A program made the position numbers and the translations under genes. This document shows, piece after piece, positions 30,199 through 38,987 of a DNA stretch of 64,000 nt. Every line of letters starts with the position of its first letter. Position 1 is the first letter of the stretch. The stretch is from a bacterium (lineage in GTDB: Bacteria; Zhuqueibacterota; QNDG01; JAFGCO01): NCBI GenBank assembly GCA_016932575.1, contig JAFGCO010000048.1, positions 1 through 64,000 on the forward strand, in the 5' to 3' direction. The notes beneath the pieces were generated by a model. It saw only the letters and a program-made list of their open reading frames with translations, ran no database searches and was not told where the DNA came from.

Positions 30199-30240
30199 TG
30201 TTGAAACGGCTTTACTGTAATATAAAGGGTGTTCATTGAA
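30199..30240 (+). CDS. Short leader ORF ahead of the hsd operon
   Basis: Thirteen codons, MLKRLYCNIKGVH, starting exactly 7 nt after the -10 box, so it would be a leaderless start. Its TGA overlaps the TTG start of the next gene (TTGA), an arrangement that would couple their translation. Too short to judge by composition; coding status uncertain. Confidence 0.25.
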
Positions 30241-30811
30241 AGTTCAGTTAAAAAATATCGCATCACTTCAAATGGGTTACCCCTTTCGATCCCGGCTTAA
30301 ACACAGCCATGCAGGCTCAATTTCTGTGATTCAGATGAAGGATCTCACAGATATGAATGTGGTTGACTGTCATTCTCTGATCCGGGTTGATGTGGGGAGT
30401 TTAAAAACACACCATCTTGTAAAGCCCGGCGAATTAATCTTTCGTTCACGAGGAAAGATGGCCACGACCGCGTTATTAAACGTGGATCCAGGCGATGCTG
30501 TGGTGGCTGCTCCATTGATCAGGATTCAAATTAAAAACCGACAGATTTTACCTGAATATTTAAACTGGTACTTTTCACAATCAAATACACAAAACTGGTT
30601 CGCCGCGCGTCGCGAAGGCACGCATGGCGGGATGATCAATAAGCTGACACTTGAGCATTTTGAAGTGGAGATCCCTTCCATTAAAACCCAGAAAGAAATA
30701 CTGGAAATCAGCGAATTGTTGAAAAAAGAAAATAAATTGACAGAAGAATTACAGGTGAAACGGAATATCTATGTATCCACCCTGTTAATGCAACTGGCTC
30801 AGGGAGAATAA
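30236..30811 (+). CDS. Single-domain HsdS-like specificity protein
   Basis: 191 residues from a TTG with AAGGGTG upstream. It has one target-recognition domain: VQLKNIASLQMGYPFRS start, LVKPGELIFRSRGKMATTA, PEYLNWYFSQSNTQNW, GTHGGMINKLTLEHFEVEIP, then one helical conserved region (TQKEILEISELLKKENKLTEEL). Complete HsdS proteins have two such halves (about 390-450 residues); this one is half-size. It precedes hsdM by 5 nt and a full hsdS lies 2.5 kb downstream. It could dimerise to recognise a palindromic site, replace the full subunit, or regulate it. Not obviously a truncation, as its end is a normal helical region. Confidence 0.85.
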   Translation: MKVQLKNIASLQMGYPFRSRLKHSHAGSISVIQMKDLTDMNVVDCHSLIRVDVGSLKTHHLVKPGELIFRSRGKMATTALLNVDPGDAVVAAPLIRIQIKNRQILPEYLNWYFSQSNTQNWFAARREGTHGGMINKLTLEHFEVEIPSIKTQKEILEISELLKKENKLTEELQVKRNIYVSTLLMQLAQGE

Positions 30812-30816
30812 AAGCA

Positions 30817-32373
30817 ATGAGTGATAAAATTGAACAGAAGGATATTAACAATGCCGCATGGGCGGCCTGTGATACGTTTCGGGGCGTGGTCGATCCGGCG
30901 CAATATAAGGATTATATTCTGGTCATGCTCTTTTTAAAATATATTTCCGATATCTGGAAAGATCATTATGAATCCTATCGCGAACAGTATGGCGACGATG
31001 ATGTGCGGATTCGCCGCAAACTGGAGCGCGAACGTTTTGTGCTGCCCCTGATCAAGTTGAAAGATCCCCATAGCGGAAAAGAATTGGATTCTTTTTTGGC
31101 GGATTATTACAGCTTGTACGAACGGCGTAATGAAGCGAATATCGGCGAGCTGATCAATATTGTTTTAGAGCATGTGGAAAGCGCGAATAAAACAAAACTC
31201 GAAGGCGTTTTTCGGAATATCGATTTTAACAGCGAAGCCAATCTTGGGAAAACCAAAGACCGCAACCGGCGGTTAAAACTGCTTCTGGAGGATTTTCACA
31301 AACCCGAATTAGATATGCGGCCGAGCAGGGTGTCTGCCGATGTGATCGGGAATACCTATATTTTTCTGATTGAGCGTTTTGCTTCGGATGCCGGTAAAAA
31401 AGCGGGTGAATTCTACACACCCGAAATGGTTTCAAAACTGGTGGCTAAATTGGCTGGCCCGAAAACCGGTCATCGTATTTGCGATCCGGCATGCGGTTCA
31501 GGCGGTCTTCTCATCGAAGCGGCCCGTGAAGTGGGTGATAAAAATTACGCGTTGTTCGGTATGGAAGTGAACGGCAGTACCTGGGCGCTGGCAAGCATGA
31601 ACATGTTTCTGCATCAGGCGGACAGCGCGCGTATTGAATGGTGCAATACCTTGACCAGCCCGGCCCTGGTGGAACATGACCGGCTCATGAAGTTCAATAT
31701 CGTCGTGGCCAATCCCCCGTTTTCTCTGGATAAATGGGGCGCTGAAGAGGCGGAAAAAGATCCATACAACCGGTTCTGGCGCGGCATTCCGCCCAAAAGC
31801 AAGGGCGACTGGGCTTTTATCAGCCATATGGTGGAAGCGGCCTTTGAAAAAGAGGGCCGGGTGTCTGTGGTTGTGCCGCATGGGGTTCTGTTCCGGGGTG
31901 CTGCGGAGGGGCGCATCAGACGGAAGATGATTGAAGACAATTTGCTAGATGCTGTGGTCGGCCTGCCTGCCAACCTTTTTCCTACTACCAGTATTCCTGT
32001 GGCCATTCTGGTGTTTGACCGAAGGCGTGAAGAGGGTGGTTCAAAAGAAAATTGTAAAAATGTGTTCTTCATCGACGCCAGTCGGGAATTCATGCCGGGC
32101 AAGAATCAGAATATTTTATTGGATGAGCATATACAGAAAATTGTGAATACTTACAAAGCCCGGAAAGACGTAGACAAATATGCGCATGCGGCTTCGTTTG
32201 ATGAGATCAAGGAAAATGATTTTAATCTGAATGTTCCACGGTATGTGGATACGTTTGAGGAGGAAGAAGAAATTGATATCGATGAAGTGCAGAAAGAGAT
32301 CGATGCGCTGGAAAAGGAGCTGGTGGAAGTGAGGGAGAAGATGGCGGAGAAATTGAGGGGGATAAATAGATGA
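30817..32373 (+). CDS. hsdM: Type I restriction-modification DNA methyltransferase HsdM
   Basis: 518 residues. N-terminal helical HsdM_N region (about 8-140), then the N6-adenine methylase: AGEFYTPEMVSKLV, SAM-binding DPACGSGGLLIEA (about 222), catalytic NPPFSLDKWG (about 298), and HGVLFRG. The C-terminal tail is a charged coiled coil (EEEEEIDIDEVQKEI, then LEKELVEVREKMAEKL). It modifies host DNA and forms the core of the M2S/R2M2S complex. GGGAG precedes the start. Its stop overlaps the dinD start (ATGA). The last roughly 70 bp are repeated after dinD. Confidence 0.97.
   Translation: MSDKIEQKDINNAAWAACDTFRGVVDPAQYKDYILVMLFLKYISDIWKDHYESYREQYGDDDVRIRRKLERERFVLPLIKLKDPHSGKELDSFLADYYSLYERRNEANIGELINIVLEHVESANKTKLEGVFRNIDFNSEANLGKTKDRNRRLKLLLEDFHKPELDMRPSRVSADVIGNTYIFLIERFASDAGKKAGEFYTPEMVSKLVAKLAGPKTGHRICDPACGSGGLLIEAAREVGDKNYALFGMEVNGSTWALASMNMFLHQADSARIEWCNTLTSPALVEHDRLMKFNIVVANPPFSLDKWGAEEAEKDPYNRFWRGIPPKSKGDWAFISHMVEAAFEKEGRVSVVVPHGVLFRGAAEGRIRRKMIEDNLLDAVVGLPANLFPTTSIPVAILVFDRRREEGGSKENCKNVFFIDASREFMPGKNQNILLDEHIQKIVNTYKARKDVDKYAHAASFDEIKENDFNLNVPRYVDTFEEEEEIDIDEVQKEIDALEKELVEVREKMAEKLRGINR
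32287..32357 (+). repeat. Direct repeat copy 1 (3' end of hsdM)
   Basis: 71 bp starting GTGCAGAAAGAGATC, matching 33241-33311 with about four mismatches over the first 69 bp, three of them synonymous in the hsdM frame. It encodes the HsdM coiled-coil tail. Confidence 0.9.
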
Positions 32374-33236
32374 AAGAAAATGACATTGAACAAATGCATC
32401 ACAGAACTTTTGATAGCATGAAAGAGACCGATTCAGAAGGCAGAGAATATTGGACTGCCCGAAAATTGGCAAGAATTTTGGATTATTCGGAGTACAGACA
32501 CTTTCAACCTGTAATAAAAAAAGCCATCGAAGCCTGTAAAAACAGCGGACACGCAATCTTAGACCATTTCGAGGACTTCCTCGATATGGTCGAAATCGGT
32601 TCAGGAGCTAAACGGAAATTGAAAGATGTCAGACTTTCCCGTTACGCATGCTACCTCATCGTTCAGAACGGTGATCCGAACAAGCCTGTGATTGCCAACG
32701 GCCAGACCTATTTTGCCATGCAGACCCGGCGACAGGAACTGTCCGATGATGTCAGGTTTCAAAGTCTTCAGGAAAATGAAAAACGAATCTTCCTTCGCAA
32801 TGAACTGAAGGCGCACAACAAACAACTGGTTGAGGTTGCTCAGAAGGCGGGTGTTGAGACCGGTCTTGATTTTGCCATTTTTCAGAATCATGGATATAAA
32901 GGACTGTATGGCGGATTGGATGCCAAAGACATTCACAAACGCAAGGGATTAAAAAAGAGCCAGAAGATTCTGGATAATATGGGCAGCACTGAACTGGCCG
33001 CCAATCTGTTCCGTGCAACGCAGACCGAAGACAAACTGCGCAGGGAAAACATTCATGGAAAAATCAAAGCCAACAGAACCCATTTTGATGTGGGCAAAAA
33101 AGTTCGCCAGACAATCTCGGAATTGGGCGGCACCATGCCTGAAGATCTGCCGACGCCTGATGAGGATTTGAAGAAGTTGAAGAAAAGTACAAAAGAAGAT
33201 AAGGAGCAGTTGGGAGGTGGGAGTGAAAATACCTGA
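32370..33236 (+). CDS. dinD: DNA damage-inducible protein D (DinD) homologue
   Basis: 288 residues. It matches the DinD family: EYWTARKLARILDYSEYRHFQPVIKKA, GSGAKRKLKDVRLSRYACYLIVQNGDP, and PVIANGQTYFAMQTRRQEL. In E. coli dinD is LexA-controlled and its product inhibits RecA-driven strand exchange; homologues often sit within type I restriction loci. It starts with ATGA overlap on hsdM, so it is translated with it. It is flanked by two copies of the hsdM tail, which marks it as an insertion between hsdM and hsdS. No LexA box is apparent. Confidence 0.93.
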   Translation: MKENDIEQMHHRTFDSMKETDSEGREYWTARKLARILDYSEYRHFQPVIKKAIEACKNSGHAILDHFEDFLDMVEIGSGAKRKLKDVRLSRYACYLIVQNGDPNKPVIANGQTYFAMQTRRQELSDDVRFQSLQENEKRIFLRNELKAHNKQLVEVAQKAGVETGLDFAIFQNHGYKGLYGGLDAKDIHKRKGLKKSQKILDNMGSTELAANLFRATQTEDKLRRENIHGKIKANRTHFDVGKKVRQTISELGGTMPEDLPTPDEDLKKLKKSTKEDKEQLGGGSENT

Positions 33237-33240
33237 CGCG

Positions 33241-33327
33241 GTGCAGAAAGAGATCAATGCGTTGGAAAAGGAGCTGGTGGAAGTGAGGGAAAAGATGGCG
33301 GAGAAGTTGAACGGAATTTTAAAATGA
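33241..33327 (+). pseudogene. Orphan hsdM 3'-end remnant between dinD and hsdS (includes repeat copy 2)
   Basis: The frame GTG CAG AAA ... reads VQKEINALEKELVEVREK, then MAEKLNGILK, followed by TGA, and that stop overlaps the hsdS ATG (ATGA at 33324-33327). This is the same tail and the same coupling seen at the true hsdM/dinD junction. Most likely it is the original hsdM end, cut off from its gene when dinD entered. It may still be translated as a 28-residue coupling peptide. Confidence 0.8.
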
Positions 33328-34502
33328 AATTCATTGATAAAATACCTGATTCTTGGGAATTAAGAACCCTTAAAAGCCTTACAACAAAGGAAATTCAAAA
33401 TGGCTATTCTCCAAATTGCCCAGATAAACCAACGGGTAATTGGATTCTTAGTTTGGCAAATCTTACAGAAACTGGTTTTAATATTACTGGAGTCAAACCA
33501 GCTCCATTGAATGACACAAAAATTAATGAATTTTTACTTGAACCGGGTGATTTCCTTATTAGTAGATCAAATACAATTGATAAAGTAGGTAGAGTTATTC
33601 TTTTTCAAGGTGAAATACCAAATTGCTCCTATCCTGACTTATTAATGCGATTTCGCGTTAATGATGAAGATGTTACAAGAAAATATTTAGAAAATTATCT
33701 AAAAGGTATCGTAGCAAGAAAATATATTCAGAGTTGTGCCTCAGGAACAAGTGTTAGTATGGTCAAAATAAATAAAAGAACTGTTGAGAAAATCCCTGTT
33801 CTACTTCCCCCACTTCCCGAACAAAAAGCCATTGCTGAATTGCTTTCAACCTGGGATGAGGCGATTGAGAAAACGGAGCGGTTGATTGAGGCGAAGGAGA
33901 AGCGGTTTAAGTGGTTGGTGGATTATTTGATAATTGACAAATGTAAAAACCAAAAATGGGGAAAAATTAAATTGCATGAGATTGTAAAAGTTGTAAAAGG
34001 ACAACAATTAAATCGATCTGACCTGCTTGATAATGGAAAATATTATGCGTTAAACGGAGGTGTTGAACCATCTGGATATACCAATAATTGGAATACGCTT
34101 GAAAATACAATAACTATCAGTGAGGGCGGTAATTCATGTGGATATGTAAATTTTAACAGAGAAAAATTTTGGTCTGGAGGTCATTGTTATTCATTATTGA
34201 ATTTAAAATCCGATTTAAATAATGAGTTTCTATTCTATTATTTAAAATCCCAGGAAAGAAAGATTATGAATTTGAGAGTAGGTTCTGGTCTCCCAAATAT
34301 TCAAAGAAAAGATATTGAAAATTTAATTGTTATGAAACCTCGTATTGAAGAGCAAAAACAGATTGCAGAAATTTTAAATATAGCAATAATAGAAATTGAT
34401 ATTTTAAAACAAATGATGAAAAAATATAAAGAACAGAAACGTGGTTTAATGCAGAAATTGTTGACCGGGCAATGGCGGGTGAAATGTGACGACGTTCCGT
34501 AG
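33324..34502 (+). CDS. hsdS: Type I restriction-modification specificity subunit HsdS
   Basis: 392 residues with the usual two halves. TRD1 about 1-155 (VPDSW-like start IPDSWELRTLKSL, LEPGDFLISRSNT, GTSVSMVKINKRTVEKIPV), conserved helical region about 158-204 (PLPEQKAIAELLSTWDEAIE, EAKEKRFKWLV), TRD2 about 210-345 (GSGLPNIQRKDIENL), and second helical region to the end (EEQKQIAEIL, LMQKLLTGQWRVK). TRDs read the two halves of a split DNA target. The two TRDs are clearly AT-richer than the helical regions, the usual sign of domain exchange. Start coupled to the hsdM-tail remnant. Confidence 0.95.
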   Translation: MKFIDKIPDSWELRTLKSLTTKEIQNGYSPNCPDKPTGNWILSLANLTETGFNITGVKPAPLNDTKINEFLLEPGDFLISRSNTIDKVGRVILFQGEIPNCSYPDLLMRFRVNDEDVTRKYLENYLKGIVARKYIQSCASGTSVSMVKINKRTVEKIPVLLPPLPEQKAIAELLSTWDEAIEKTERLIEAKEKRFKWLVDYLIIDKCKNQKWGKIKLHEIVKVVKGQQLNRSDLLDNGKYYALNGGVEPSGYTNNWNTLENTITISEGGNSCGYVNFNREKFWSGGHCYSLLNLKSDLNNEFLFYYLKSQERKIMNLRVGSGLPNIQRKDIENLIVMKPRIEEQKQIAEILNIAIIEIDILKQMMKKYKEQKRGLMQKLLTGQWRVKCDDVP

Positions 34503-34616
34503 GGGCAGATCCATGTATCTGTCCCAAAAGAATGAAAGGGCAAACATGCGGGTTTGCCAAAACATCAGATCAACCGCACACCACCCCGGGGCAAACACGT
34601 GGGTTTGCCCGTACGA
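34500..34616. repeat. REP/BIME cluster A: three hairpin repeats
   Basis: Three short inverted repeats: 34502-34525 (GGGGCAGAT...ATCTGTCCC), 34538-34558 (GGGCAAAC...GGGTTTGCC) and 34588-34610 (GGGCAAAC...GTTTGCCC). The same three, in the same order and orientation, recur inside the following transposase gene. They are the likely substrates of that enzyme. Confidence 0.85.
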
Positions 34617-34645
34617 TTGAATAAAAATATTATTGTGGTTATTGC

Positions 34646-35398
34646 GTGAAAAAGAAAATCAAATACAATCCGGAAATTCATCATCGCCGGTCGATCCGGT
34701 TGAAGGGATATGATTATTCGCAGCCCGGTTATTATTTTGTGACCATTTGCGTTCAGAAGCGATTATGTTTATTCGGCGAAATCATCGATGGTATGATGAA
34801 ATTGAATGATGCGGGATTAATGATTGAAAAATGGTGGAAGAAATTATCAGAGAAATATGATTGTATCAGATGCGATGAATACACAGTGATGCCGAATCAT
34901 TTTCATGGGATTATAAAATTCGTAGGGGCGGACCCATGTGTCCACTCCGATAAAACGACCGGACGATCAGATAAATCGCGACAAATTCATCACACAGAAG
35001 GTCAAACATGTGGGTTTGCCAAAACACCGGATCAACCACATCCCACCCCAGGGCAAACACGCGGGTTTGCCCCTACGGATATACCGAGGGTGGTTCAATG
35101 GTTTAAAACCATGTCTACAAATGAATATATCCGGTATGTGAAATCTGACAATTGGAAACCATTTATTGGAAAATTATGGCAGCGCAATTATTGGGAACAT
35201 GTTATACGAAATGATGATGAATTAAATCGTATTCGTGAATACATACAATACAATCCACAGAATTGGTTCAAAGACAAATTGTATGTAGGGGCGGAGCCTT
35301 GTGCCCGCCCAAAACAAAATATAGAGAAGAACCAAAATGACATATTATCCATTTCGGATCACATCCCCCTGTACGGAGAAAAATCATGGATGATATAA
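34646..35398 (+). CDS. rayT: REP-associated tyrosine transposase (RAYT, Y1/HUH family)
   Basis: 250 residues from a GTG at 34646 (no good ribosome site). HUH motif in VMPNHFHGIIKF (about residue 88), candidate catalytic Tyr in WFKTMSTNEYIRYVK, and the family end LWQRNYWEHVIRNDDELN, REYIQYNPQNW. These single-stranded DNA transferases recognise and spread REP hairpins. Between the HUH motif and IPRVVQWF is a roughly 50-residue insertion (GADPCVHSD, GQTCGFAK, GQTRGFAPTD) encoded by REP DNA itself, and another REP makes AEPCARPK near the C-terminus. It lies inside the hsd operon between hsdS and hsdR. Frame is intact. Confidence 0.93.
   Translation: MKKKIKYNPEIHHRRSIRLKGYDYSQPGYYFVTICVQKRLCLFGEIIDGMMKLNDAGLMIEKWWKKLSEKYDCIRCDEYTVMPNHFHGIIKFVGADPCVHSDKTTGRSDKSRQIHHTEGQTCGFAKTPDQPHPTPGQTRGFAPTDIPRVVQWFKTMSTNEYIRYVKSDNWKPFIGKLWQRNYWEHVIRNDDELNRIREYIQYNPQNWFKDKLYVGAEPCARPKQNIEKNQNDILSISDHIPLYGEKSWMI
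34923..35078. repeat. REP/BIME cluster B inside the transposase gene
   Basis: Hairpin units at 34925-34948 (GGGGCGGACC...GGTCCACTCC-like, imperfect), 35000-35020 (GGTCAAAC...GGGTTTGCC) and 35050-35072 (GGGCAAAC...GTTTGCCC). Units two and three plus their spacer (AAAACA...GATCAACC...CCACCCC) closely match 34538-34610. Confidence 0.8.
35288..35310. repeat. REP unit near the 3' end of the transposase gene
   Basis: GGGGCGGAGCCTTGTGCCCGCCC, a hairpin of the same class as units 34502-34525 and 34925-34948, preceded like them by GTA. Confidence 0.65.
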
Positions 35399-35772
35399 AT
35401 CACAACCTCCCCACCCAATCCCAATTGCTCCTCTACCAGACCGAAGACGGACAGACACGGATTGAGGTGAGGCTGCAGGATGAAACGGTGTGGCTGACGA
35501 TTAATCAGATGGCGGAACTGTTTCAGGTAGACAAATCCGGCATCAGCCGTCATCTCAAAAATATTTATGATACGCATGAATTGACACGGGAGGCAACTGT
35601 TGCAAAATTTGCAACAGTTCAGCAGGAAGCCATGGATAAAGTGCATTCAGAATATGAAAAAATCAGACTAAAACAAATGAATGAACTTTCACCCGTGGAA
35701 AAACATTTTCTGAAATCCATGAAGGAAATGAAGAAAATTGAGGCGTCCGTCAAAAGGAGCAAAAAGTCATGA
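35386..35772 (+). CDS. Short RhuM-like HTH protein, probably internally deleted
   Basis: 128 residues; ATG preceded by GGAG 7 nt away. The N-terminal 80 residues match the virulence protein RhuM / Fic-linked family: LLLYQTEDGQTRIEVRLQDETVWLTINQMAELF, cut here for length, followed by VDKSGISRHLKNIYDTHEL and ATVAKFATVQQE. Full RhuM proteins are about 330 residues; here the N-terminal HTH part passes directly into a short charged tail (KVHSEYEKIRLKQMNEL) resembling the family's extreme C-terminus, so the middle seems missing. RhuM genes commonly sit in type I restriction loci. It overlaps rayT by 13 bp and hsdR by 4 bp (ATGA). Role unknown. Confidence 0.75.
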   Translation: MDDINHNLPTQSQLLLYQTEDGQTRIEVRLQDETVWLTINQMAELFQVDKSGISRHLKNIYDTHELTREATVAKFATVQQEAMDKVHSEYEKIRLKQMNELSPVEKHFLKSMKEMKKIEASVKRSKKS

Positions 35773-38700
35773 GTCAGGACGGACCGGTTTATCACTCAGA
35801 CGGATTCCGGTTTAATGAGAAGTATCTCTCCCAGATTCCGGCCATTCAACTTTTAATAAATCTCGGATATGTGTATCTGACTCCTCAGGAAGCGTTGAAA
35901 GAACGGCTGGATAAAACAGATCAAATTCTGTTAGAGGGCATACTTCGCGTACAGTTGAAAAAAATCAACCGGATTCAATATAAAGGCCAGGAATTTTTAT
36001 TTACGGAAGAAAATATTCAATCCGCCATTCAAAAGCTAAAAAACATTCCTTATGACGGGCTCCTTAAAACCAATGAAGCGGTTTATGACTTAATCACCCT
36101 GGGCACTGCTCTTGAGCAGAATATCGAAGGCGATTCCAAGAGTTTTAATTTAAAATATATCGACTGGCAGAATCCTGAACGGAACATGTTTCACGTCACT
36201 TCGGAATTCAGTGTGGAACGATCCCGAAGCACGGAAACAGTTCGGCCGGATATTGTCTTGTTTGTGAATGGCATTCCTTTTGTCATTATAGAATGCAAGT
36301 CGCCTAAAATAGAAATTGATCAGGCCATTTCCCAGTCCATAAGAAACCAGGGATTTGAATACATCCCAAAATTATTTATGTATGCGCAAATGGTTTTGGG
36401 CTTAAATAAGAATGAGGCACGGTTTGCCACTGTAGGCAGTGACAAAGAATTCTGGGCCATATGGAAAGAAAAAAAGGATAAAAAAGAAAAGATCATTAAA
36501 ATCGTTAATCAATTCTTGACTGTCGATCAGAAAGATCATCTTTTCAGCGGCGAATTCGACATTGCACGCTCTCATTTTAATGCACTTGAAAAAGAAGAGC
36601 GGCTTGTCACAGAACAGGACAAAGCTTTATTCAGTCTATGCCGGCCGGAGCGGTTACTTGAACTGAACTATAAATTTACAGTTTTCGAAGGCATCGACCG
36701 AAAGATTGCACGGTATCAACAATATTTTGTAATAAAATCGACCCTTGAAAGAATCAAGCAAAAAAATGCCAAAGGCATTCGAAAGGGCGGCATTATCTGG
36801 CATACACAGGGATCGGGTAAATCACTGACCATGGTGATGTTAGCTCGTAATCTCGCATTGGATTCTGAAATTCCAAATCCGCGTCTAATCCTTGTCACAG
36901 ACAGAAAGAACCTCGATGAACAGTTAAGCAATACGTTCGCAACATGCGGGCTGGATCGTAGTCATGCCACATCCGGACGGGATTTGCTGAAACTAATTTC
37001 CAAAGATAAAGCGACCATTGTCACAACATTGATCCAAAAATTTGAAAAAGCGTTGAATATTCAGAGATTTCAGGATGATTCTCCCAATATATTTATGCTG
37101 ATCGATGAGAGCCACCGCAGTCAGTTTGGATCAATGGCCGCCCGTATGCGTCAAATGTTCCCCAAAGCGTGTTATATTGGCTTTACAGGAACGCCCTTGA
37201 TGAAATCGGAAAAAAATAACTTCATCAAGTTTGGCGGCTTAATTGAACCATACTATTCCATTACCCAAGCTGTGGATGACAAATCGGTGGTCCCTCTATT
37301 ATATGAAGGCCGTATGGTTGAAATGGAGCAAAACAAGGCGGCTATCGATCTTTGGTTTGAACGCCATACCAGCAATATGACAGACAAACAAAAAGCGGAT
37401 CTGAAAAGGAAATATGCTCGAGCGGAAATGCTGAATAAGGCGGATCGGGTTGTTTATATGCGCGCATTCGACATCAGTGAACATTACCGGTCCACATGGC
37501 AGGGCACAGGCTTTAAAGCCCAATTAGTGGCACCAAATAAATCAACAGCAATTAAATATCATATGTATTTAAACGAAATAGGACTTGTCTCATCCGAAGT
37601 CGTTATCTCCGGGCCGGATGCACGGGAGGGATATGATGAGGTAGACGAAGAACCCACTGATGATGTGATAAGGTTCTGGAAAAAAATGATGAGGCGGTTC
37701 GGTAATGAAGAAAATTACAATAAACAGATCATCAATCAGTTTAAAGCAGGAGACACTCCGGAAATTATTATTGTTGTCAGCAAACTTTTGACTGGATTTG
37801 ACGCACCCAAGAACACAGTGATTTATCTTTGTAAAGAGTTGAGAGAACATTCATTACTCCAGGCGATTGCGCGTGTCAACCGGATACATGAAAATAAAGA
37901 GTTCGGTTATGTTGTGGATTATGTCGGATTGCTTGGCAAATTAGATGAAGCACTCACCATGTACAGTGCTCTTGAAAATTTTGATGAAGCAGATTTGGCA
38001 GGAGCGCTTTTAGCCATTGACAAAGAGATTGAGAAACTGCCCCAAAAACATTCGGACCTGTGGGACCTGTTTAAAACCATAAAAAATAGCCGTGACGAAG
38101 AAGCGTATGAAGTCTTCCTGAGAGAAGGCAAAGCACGGGACGAATTTTATGAGAGGTTATCCGAATTCAGCAGAACATTGACAATAGCCCTTTCGTCTCA
38201 TGATTTTATTATCAATATTGAGAATAATAAACTCCGCCAATATAAAACCGATTTGAAACGATTTCAAAATCTGAAATCGTCAGTCAGGTTGAGATACGCG
38301 GAATCGATCAGTTATAAAGATTATGAACCCAAAATAAAAAAGCTGTTAGACACCCATATTCAGGCCAATGAGGTAATTCAACTCAATGAACCTGTCAATA
38401 TTTTTGATGATGATGCGTTTATGGGAATCAAAGACCAGCAAGGTGTCTATGAACGGTCGACCGCTTCACAGGCGGATTCGATTGCGCACGCCTTAAAAAA
38501 GACAATCACAGAAAAAATGGAAGAAGATCCGGCTTTTTATGAAAAATTCTCAAAACTGATTCAGAAAGCCATTGATGATTTCAGAAACAAGCGAATTTCG
38601 GATTTGGAATACTTAAAGAGAACACGGGAAATCCGGGATAAATTCGTATCTCATCAACACGATGATGTTCCTGATGCATTGGACGGCAACGAGGATGCCA

Positions 38701-38987
38701 TGGCCTATTTTGGTATTCTGAAACCCTATTTTGAAAAGCAGTCAGGAAAATCAGACCAATGGGAAACAATCGCTACGAACACAGCAGTCGCAATTCAGGA
38801 AATATTAAAGAAACACTGGAAGGTTCATTTTTGGGATGACCATGACGCACAAAAACAGGCGATAAACGATATCGATGATTATCTTTTTGATGAAGTTAAA
38901 AATGTTCATGGATTTCAATTCAGTCTCACAGCGATGGATGAGATTATTGAAAGAACCATGCGCGTAGCCCGGCACAGGAGCAGTTAA
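35769..38987 (+). CDS. hsdR: Type I restriction enzyme HsdR (nuclease and translocase subunit)
   Basis: 1072 residues. N-terminal PD-(D/E)xK nuclease: VRPDIVLFVNGIPFVIIECKSP (about 160-180). SF2 motor: Walker A HTQGSGKSLTMV (about 344), LILVTDRKNLDEQL, DEAD-box-like LIDESHRSQFG, GFTGTPL, LLTGFDAPK, and IARVNRIHE (motif VI). C-terminal helical region joins HsdM. It cuts unmodified DNA after ATP-driven translocation. Coupled by ATGA to the RhuM-like gene. No frameshift is seen, so restriction should be functional. Confidence 0.96.
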   Translation: MSQDGPVYHSDGFRFNEKYLSQIPAIQLLINLGYVYLTPQEALKERLDKTDQILLEGILRVQLKKINRIQYKGQEFLFTEENIQSAIQKLKNIPYDGLLKTNEAVYDLITLGTALEQNIEGDSKSFNLKYIDWQNPERNMFHVTSEFSVERSRSTETVRPDIVLFVNGIPFVIIECKSPKIEIDQAISQSIRNQGFEYIPKLFMYAQMVLGLNKNEARFATVGSDKEFWAIWKEKKDKKEKIIKIVNQFLTVDQKDHLFSGEFDIARSHFNALEKEERLVTEQDKALFSLCRPERLLELNYKFTVFEGIDRKIARYQQYFVIKSTLERIKQKNAKGIRKGGIIWHTQGSGKSLTMVMLARNLALDSEIPNPRLILVTDRKNLDEQLSNTFATCGLDRSHATSGRDLLKLISKDKATIVTTLIQKFEKALNIQRFQDDSPNIFMLIDESHRSQFGSMAARMRQMFPKACYIGFTGTPLMKSEKNNFIKFGGLIEPYYSITQAVDDKSVVPLLYEGRMVEMEQNKAAIDLWFERHTSNMTDKQKADLKRKYARAEMLNKADRVVYMRAFDISEHYRSTWQGTGFKAQLVAPNKSTAIKYHMYLNEIGLVSSEVVISGPDAREGYDEVDEEPTDDVIRFWKKMMRRFGNEENYNKQIINQFKAGDTPEIIIVVSKLLTGFDAPKNTVIYLCKELREHSLLQAIARVNRIHENKEFGYVVDYVGLLGKLDEALTMYSALENFDEADLAGALLAIDKEIEKLPQKHSDLWDLFKTIKNSRDEEAYEVFLREGKARDEFYERLSEFSRTLTIALSSHDFIINIENNKLRQYKTDLKRFQNLKSSVRLRYAESISYKDYEPKIKKLLDTHIQANEVIQLNEPVNIFDDDAFMGIKDQQGVYERSTASQADSIAHALKKTITEKMEEDPAFYEKFSKLIQKAIDDFRNKRISDLEYLKRTREIRDKFVSHQHDDVPDALDGNEDAMAYFGILKPYFEKQSGKSDQWETIATNTAVAIQEILKKHWKVHFWDDHDAQKQAINDIDDYLFDEVKNVHGFQFSLTAMDEIIERTMRVARHRSS

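Follow-up and report, generated by a model that had tools for sequence, protein, structure and literature searches.

In the window analysed here, a 64,000-nt stretch of DNA, a full-length dinD gene lies between hsdM and hsdS of a type I restriction-modification operon, and the final 87 nt of hsdM (32287-32373) are present again 3' of dinD (33241-33327), with the reading frame kept. The second copy forms part of an open frame whose stop codon overlaps the hsdS start, and related operons have orphan hsdM tails of the same kind, placed after a passenger gene and before hsdS. From these comparisons of sequence we consider it probable, though far from certain, that the hsdM-hsdS junction serves as an insertion slot and that the leftover tail is a mini-cistron of ~35 codons relaying translational coupling across the passenger.

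A repeated hsdM end around dinD

The operon comprises, in order, a half-length hsdS-like gene (from 30236), hsdM, dinD, the orphan tail, hsdS, a REP-type transposase gene, an rhuM fragment, hsdR, and a YgjP-like gene. Its main parts are as follows:

30236-30811, + strand: half-length HsdS-like gene with one Methylase_S domain, at the operon head (PF01420, 38 bits)
30817-32373, + strand: hsdM, DNA adenine methylase subunit (TIGR00497, 283 bits; PF02384; PF12161)
32287-32373, + strand: repeat copy 1, the 3' end of hsdM (repeat comparison)
32370-33236, + strand: dinD, the passenger in the hsdM-hsdS slot (NF008573, 463 bits; Bro-N, PF02498)
33223-33327, + strand: putative mini-cistron of ~34-35 codons (GTG start predicted from a GGAGG motif lying 5 nt before it)
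33241-33327, + strand: repeat copy 2, the orphan hsdM tail within the mini-cistron (translation VQKEINALEKELVEVREKMAEKLNGILK, then stop)
33324-34502, + strand: hsdS, specificity subunit with two domains (PF01420, 137 bits, two stretches)
35769-38987, + strand: hsdR, restriction subunit (TIGR00348, 465 bits)

The joint presence of HsdM (TIGR00497), a two-domain HsdS (PF01420), and HsdR (TIGR00348) identifies a type I system. DinD matches NF008573 over residues 4-284 with 463 bits against a cut-off of 242, and its gene is single-copy in the genome; the E. coli protein is an inhibitor of RecA filaments (as cited in PMC10602874). Being a non-hsd gene amid hsd genes on the same strand, in several relatives as well as here, dinD qualifies as an embedded gene. 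It is the sole gene with a family match in the 954-nt inserted segment, where no integrase or recombinase was found, which does not fit a site-specific integrative element that restores the 3' end of its target gene.

The direct repeat spans 32287-32375 and 33241-33329 (89 nt, 87% identity, spacing 954). Up to the stop codon the copies differ at 12 of 87 positions: four lie in the first 69 nt, three of them synonymous and one non-synonymous (D to N), and eight crowd into the last 18 nt, an uneven clustering (Fisher P = 0.0002), with no identical run exceeding 28 nt. Copy 2 is without the G-rich stretch that stands before dinD in copy 1, and has N at a site where every related hsdM shown has D or E. 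The initial annotation had reported the repeated hsdM 3' end with its ATGA and the four early differences; both observations hold, and to them can be added that the repeat extends over 87 nt as far as the stop, that an ATGA overlap marks either end, and that eight further differences follow. A chance repeat is ruled out, since the best other ungapped match to the 87-mer on either strand of the window is 42/87 and such tails recur in the operons of relatives. A dispersed genomic repeat is likewise ruled out by a whole-genome search, which returned two copies, both in the window, and no third. An assembly artefact is unlikely because the copies differ and because similar structures occur in other genomes, among them strain-named ones such as Oligosphaera ethanolica DSM 24202 (L012) and Chlorobium sp. 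N1 (L072).

The stop codon of hsdM (ending at 32373) overlaps the start of dinD (at 32370) by ATGA, and the TGA of the orphan frame (33325-33327) overlaps the hsdS ATG at 33324, again as ATGA. Three GTG codons could start the orphan frame, at 33217, 33223, and 33241, of which the first two lie inside the end of dinD; if 33223 is used, the mini-ORF overlaps dinD by 14 nt, and every junction from hsdM through dinD and the mini-ORF to hsdS is then an overlap. The orphan copy had been said to read in frame to the hsdS start; the frame is indeed open, but it opens upstream of VQKEI, at one of these GTG codons. Coupling, described as unbroken by the inserted gene, is formally preserved by the overlaps at the junctions.

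Passengers and orphan tails in related operons

The operon as a whole has relatives, their hsdM 74-81% identical, in genomes labelled Deltaproteobacteria, Chlorobi, Synergistaceae, Spirochaeta, Candidatus Fermentibacteria, and others, a spread that points to a horizontally travelling operon. Since the hsdM-dinD ATGA junction is common to L002, L006, L007, L013, and L049, the entry of dinD probably long predates this genome.

We scanned 106 methylase ORFs with downstream sequence, to which L059, missed by the motif filter, was added. Six clear orphan hsdM tails were found, those of the window, L021, L012, L072, and L194 in the scan as well as that of L059, and each of the six is flanked by a passenger gene upstream and by hsdS downstream; no operon of this set in which hsdM abuts hsdS has one. 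A decayed orphan tail stands in front of a second passenger (ORF6N) in L004. In L194, whose hsdM is 60% identical, the slot holds Fic, followed by an 83-nt, 94% copy of the operon's own hsdM tail, and the mini-ORF has 39 codons with an ATGA overlap at either end. No tail is present in L002, L013, and L062, where dinD joins hsdS directly by ATGA. Since L194 has a tail with Fic and these three have dinD with none, dinD is neither necessary nor sufficient for the tail. A dinD-specific cassette is thereby rejected as a general rule, and with it, by the refuting conditions that had come with it, the earlier tie of the duplicated tail to dinD; the more basic proposal, that a gene entered the hsdM-hsdS junction and that a copy of the hsdM tail was left before hsdS, is supported.

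Shorter hsdM relics, matching 18-20 of the last 23 nt compared with 15 to 16 for same-region shuffles, are found at the hsdS start in L005, L007, L026, and L043, and are taken as marks of a former hsdM-hsdS junction. Other occupants of the slot in relatives are RhuM, KilA-N, Schlafen AlbA_2, Abi_2, patatin, and SAVED-domain genes. In L180 (6330-7484) and L181 (6524-7489), SAVED-domain and patatin genes fill it, each time followed by another passenger ORF, an arrangement that resembles a CBASS-type module set within the restriction operon. None of the four plasmid-borne relatives compared has a copied hsdM tail, RhuM and GIY-YIG genes overlapping hsdS directly, and viral contigs yielded three hsdM loci only, all distant, as were those of phages. 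A weak likeness of hsdM tails to the HsdS C-terminal helix (e.g. in L138 and L058) was set aside as not being an orphan tail.

Other parts of the operon also vary. The half-S gene (43-52% identity) lies upstream of hsdM in most close operons, so that each operon pairs a conserved half-S with a variable full S; in L024, L027, L029, L058, L063, L064, L074, and L075 (hsdM ~54% identical), dinD stands between the half-S gene and hsdM. Between hsdS and hsdR the window contains a REP-associated transposase gene (34499-35398, an NF047646 match below cut-off), an 80-nt, 88% direct repeat, and three GTAGGGGC-type repeats. It also has an N-terminal rhuM fragment (35386-35772; ~80 residues alike, the remainder unclear) sharing an ATGA overlap with hsdR. 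Intact rhuM immediately precedes hsdR in L043, L046, and L168, and the fragment is possibly a second case of a passenger relic held in frame before an hsd gene.

The predicted relay between dinD and hsdS

The mechanism that we propose for these arrangements is as follows. Passenger genes, here dinD, would enter the slot at the hsdM-hsdS junction, and the insertion would leave the hsdM 3' end on both sides of dinD, as a working hsdM end overlapping dinD and as a second copy before hsdS. Translated as a ~35-codon mini-cistron that overlaps the stop of dinD at its start and the start of hsdS at its stop, this second copy would let ribosomes pass from hsdM to dinD, the mini-cistron, and hsdS by termination-reinitiation without meeting an 87-nt gap. 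Gaps of ~20 nt nearly abolish such coupling, for which the last 15 nt of the upstream gene are enough (Huber et al. 2023, PMC10666635), so that an hsdM-tail mini-cistron would be expected to repair the break in coupling that an 87-nt gap causes. The 4-nt overlaps and the sufficiency of short upstream 3' ends are shared with the systems described there, whereas in the window the upstream partner would be a relic of another gene acting as an adaptor.

In all seven long-tail cases, the decayed L004 included, an ATG or GTG of the orphan frame overlaps the passenger's stop codon, starting 3 to 13 nt before its last base. The frame ends on the start codon of the next gene in six of the seven, the exception being L059, where the mini-ORF stops ~50 nt short of hsdS. 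Bridging ORFs span 10 of 16 gapped passenger-hsdS junctions compared with 3.1 expected from shuffles (P ~5e-5), in a test that treats junctions as independent despite shared ancestry (those of L012 and L021 look homologous) and for which some hsdS starts were picked by eye. Without a long tail, gapped junctions are bridged in 4/10 cases versus 1.65 expected (P ~0.05). The bridges include some in which hsdM supplies only the last 18-20 nt (L005, L026, and L043) and, at some gapped junctions, ORFs of unrelated sequence. The dinD operons L006, L007, L010, L038, L046, and L050 have a junction gap of 45-94 nt that no ORF bridges, from which it follows that coupling is not essential.

The orphan tail could instead be a passive scar of insertion or local duplication, young in the window and functionless, with a frame inherited from hsdM and now decaying. 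Its 8 diverged positions among the last 18 and its D-to-N change suit this reading, as do the mutual proximity of the two window copies and the several dinD operons that manage without any bridge. A mere scar accounts poorly, however, for an open frame overlapping the passenger stop in 7/7 long-tail cases, for bridges built with only the last 18-20 nt of hsdM, and for pooled changes that are mostly synonymous, and we think it rather unlikely.

When the window is taken together with L021, L059, and L194, tail and orphan differ by ~20.5 changes at 66 synonymous sites and ~12.5 at 225 non-synonymous sites (P ~3e-6), a bias that can reflect either a past as working hsdM ends or constraint on the mini-cistron and decides for neither. 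The window's own signal is weak, 3/4 synonymous differences giving a binomial P of ~0.025. The initial annotation had argued from synonymy to functional hsdM genes as the source; the pooled bias over four operons is compatible with this, but the argument is thin for the window, where eight more differences crowd the last 18 nt. The same bias in four pairs would also be expected if the free tail peptide (~34 residues, like the HsdM C-terminal helix) acted as a protein, for example by competing with HsdM for HsdS or HsdR, and in a model of EcoKI (PMC3510504) the HsdM C-terminus does lie near the N-terminus of HsdS. We nevertheless regard an acting peptide as highly improbable, given that the decayed yet open L004 and L072 keep the frame while losing residues, and that bridging ORFs of unrelated sequence exist.

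Origin of the two copies, precedents, and meaning

The two window copies are each other's closest relatives (score 126; next best 88), and so are those of L194. The orphan of L012, by contrast, scores 98 against a Chlorobi hsdM tail and 30 against its own, and that of L059 scores 118 against the hsdM tail of the dinD-less sister operon L189 and 96 against its own. L059 and L189 form a with/without-dinD pair of the kind that had been suggested as a check: hsdM directly precedes hsdS in L189, hsdM is 94% and HsdR 89% identical, and along 77 nt the L059 orphan is 90% identical to the end of L189 hsdM. L189 may represent either the ancestral state or an excision product. No clear switch marking a mosaic breakpoint was found in L059 hsdM relative to L189, L185, and L186. 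Because both hsdM-tail copies of L059 (5888-5960 and 6929-6990) are followed by a similar intergenic stretch, CCACGAAA..GGCACAA, the duplicated unit there may be longer than the tail.

These scores support a derivation of the copies from different hsdM lineages in L012 and L059. For the window and L194, where each pair's copies are mutual closest relatives, a local duplication, a close-relative donor, or later gene conversion all fit equally well. Accordingly, the idea that two diverged hsdM genes were the source is supported for the former operons and not for the window, whose genome has a single hsdM of this clade and thus no second same-clade hsdM as donor. In its fuller form, an hsdM-tail-dinD cassette would have come from a second, diverged hsdM by homologous recombination, an account that concerns origin only and fits either function. 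The L012 and L059 orphans, nearer to the hsdM tails of other operons than to their own, and the synonymous bias speak for this route; the closeness of the window copies speaks against it, as do the lack of a second full-length close copy in the 15 relatives' genomes searched and of any dinD-less near relative of the window showing the resident allele. We entertain it as a tentative possibility.

In EcoKI, hsdM and hsdS also share a stop/start overlap and are translationally coupled (Roberts et al. 2012, PMC3510504). The window differs in having a foreign gene between the two, and in that the copied tail forms a separate mini-cistron before hsdS rather than being fused to it, as in the proposal that type IB systems arose when an HsdM tail was copied into an hsdS gene (PMC3510504). 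Accessory or defence genes within hsd operons are represented by the rlo and mlo genes of Campylobacter jejuni (Miller et al. 2005, cited in PMC5183652) and tgvAB of Vibrio cholerae (PMC11411939); the passages of these sources that describe them place rlo and tgvAB between hsdR and hsdS and mlo between hsdS and hsdM, whereas dinD lies between hsdM and hsdS, and make no mention of a duplicated hsdM tail. A short ORF also promotes translation of the next gene in axe-txe (PMC8708949), but that ORF has two codons and another origin, and belongs to a toxin-antitoxin operon. Embedded passengers and stop/start coupling are thus known, and in the open-access literature we found no account of an hsdM-tail mini-cistron between passenger and hsdS or of a recurrent relay of this kind. 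Nor did we find dinD reported there between hsdM and hsdS; the one candidate paper describes a dinD-like gene that is carried by a mobile element and is unrelated.

Defence operons often carry passengers, but how these enter a tightly coupled operon without uncoupling its subunits is rarely visible. In the window the join can be seen, and it is repeated across several bacterial groups with dinD and in a single operon with Fic. The hsdM tail might even be a standard adaptor, whose flanking copies allow dinD, Fic, and other passengers to be swapped by tail recombination while the mini-cistron ties hsdS translation to hsdM, an extension that we hold to be doubtful. The proposed mechanism predicts that the leftover gene end serves as a translational bridge, and that recombination between the repeats would excise exactly 954 nt and restore the direct hsdM-hsdS overlap.
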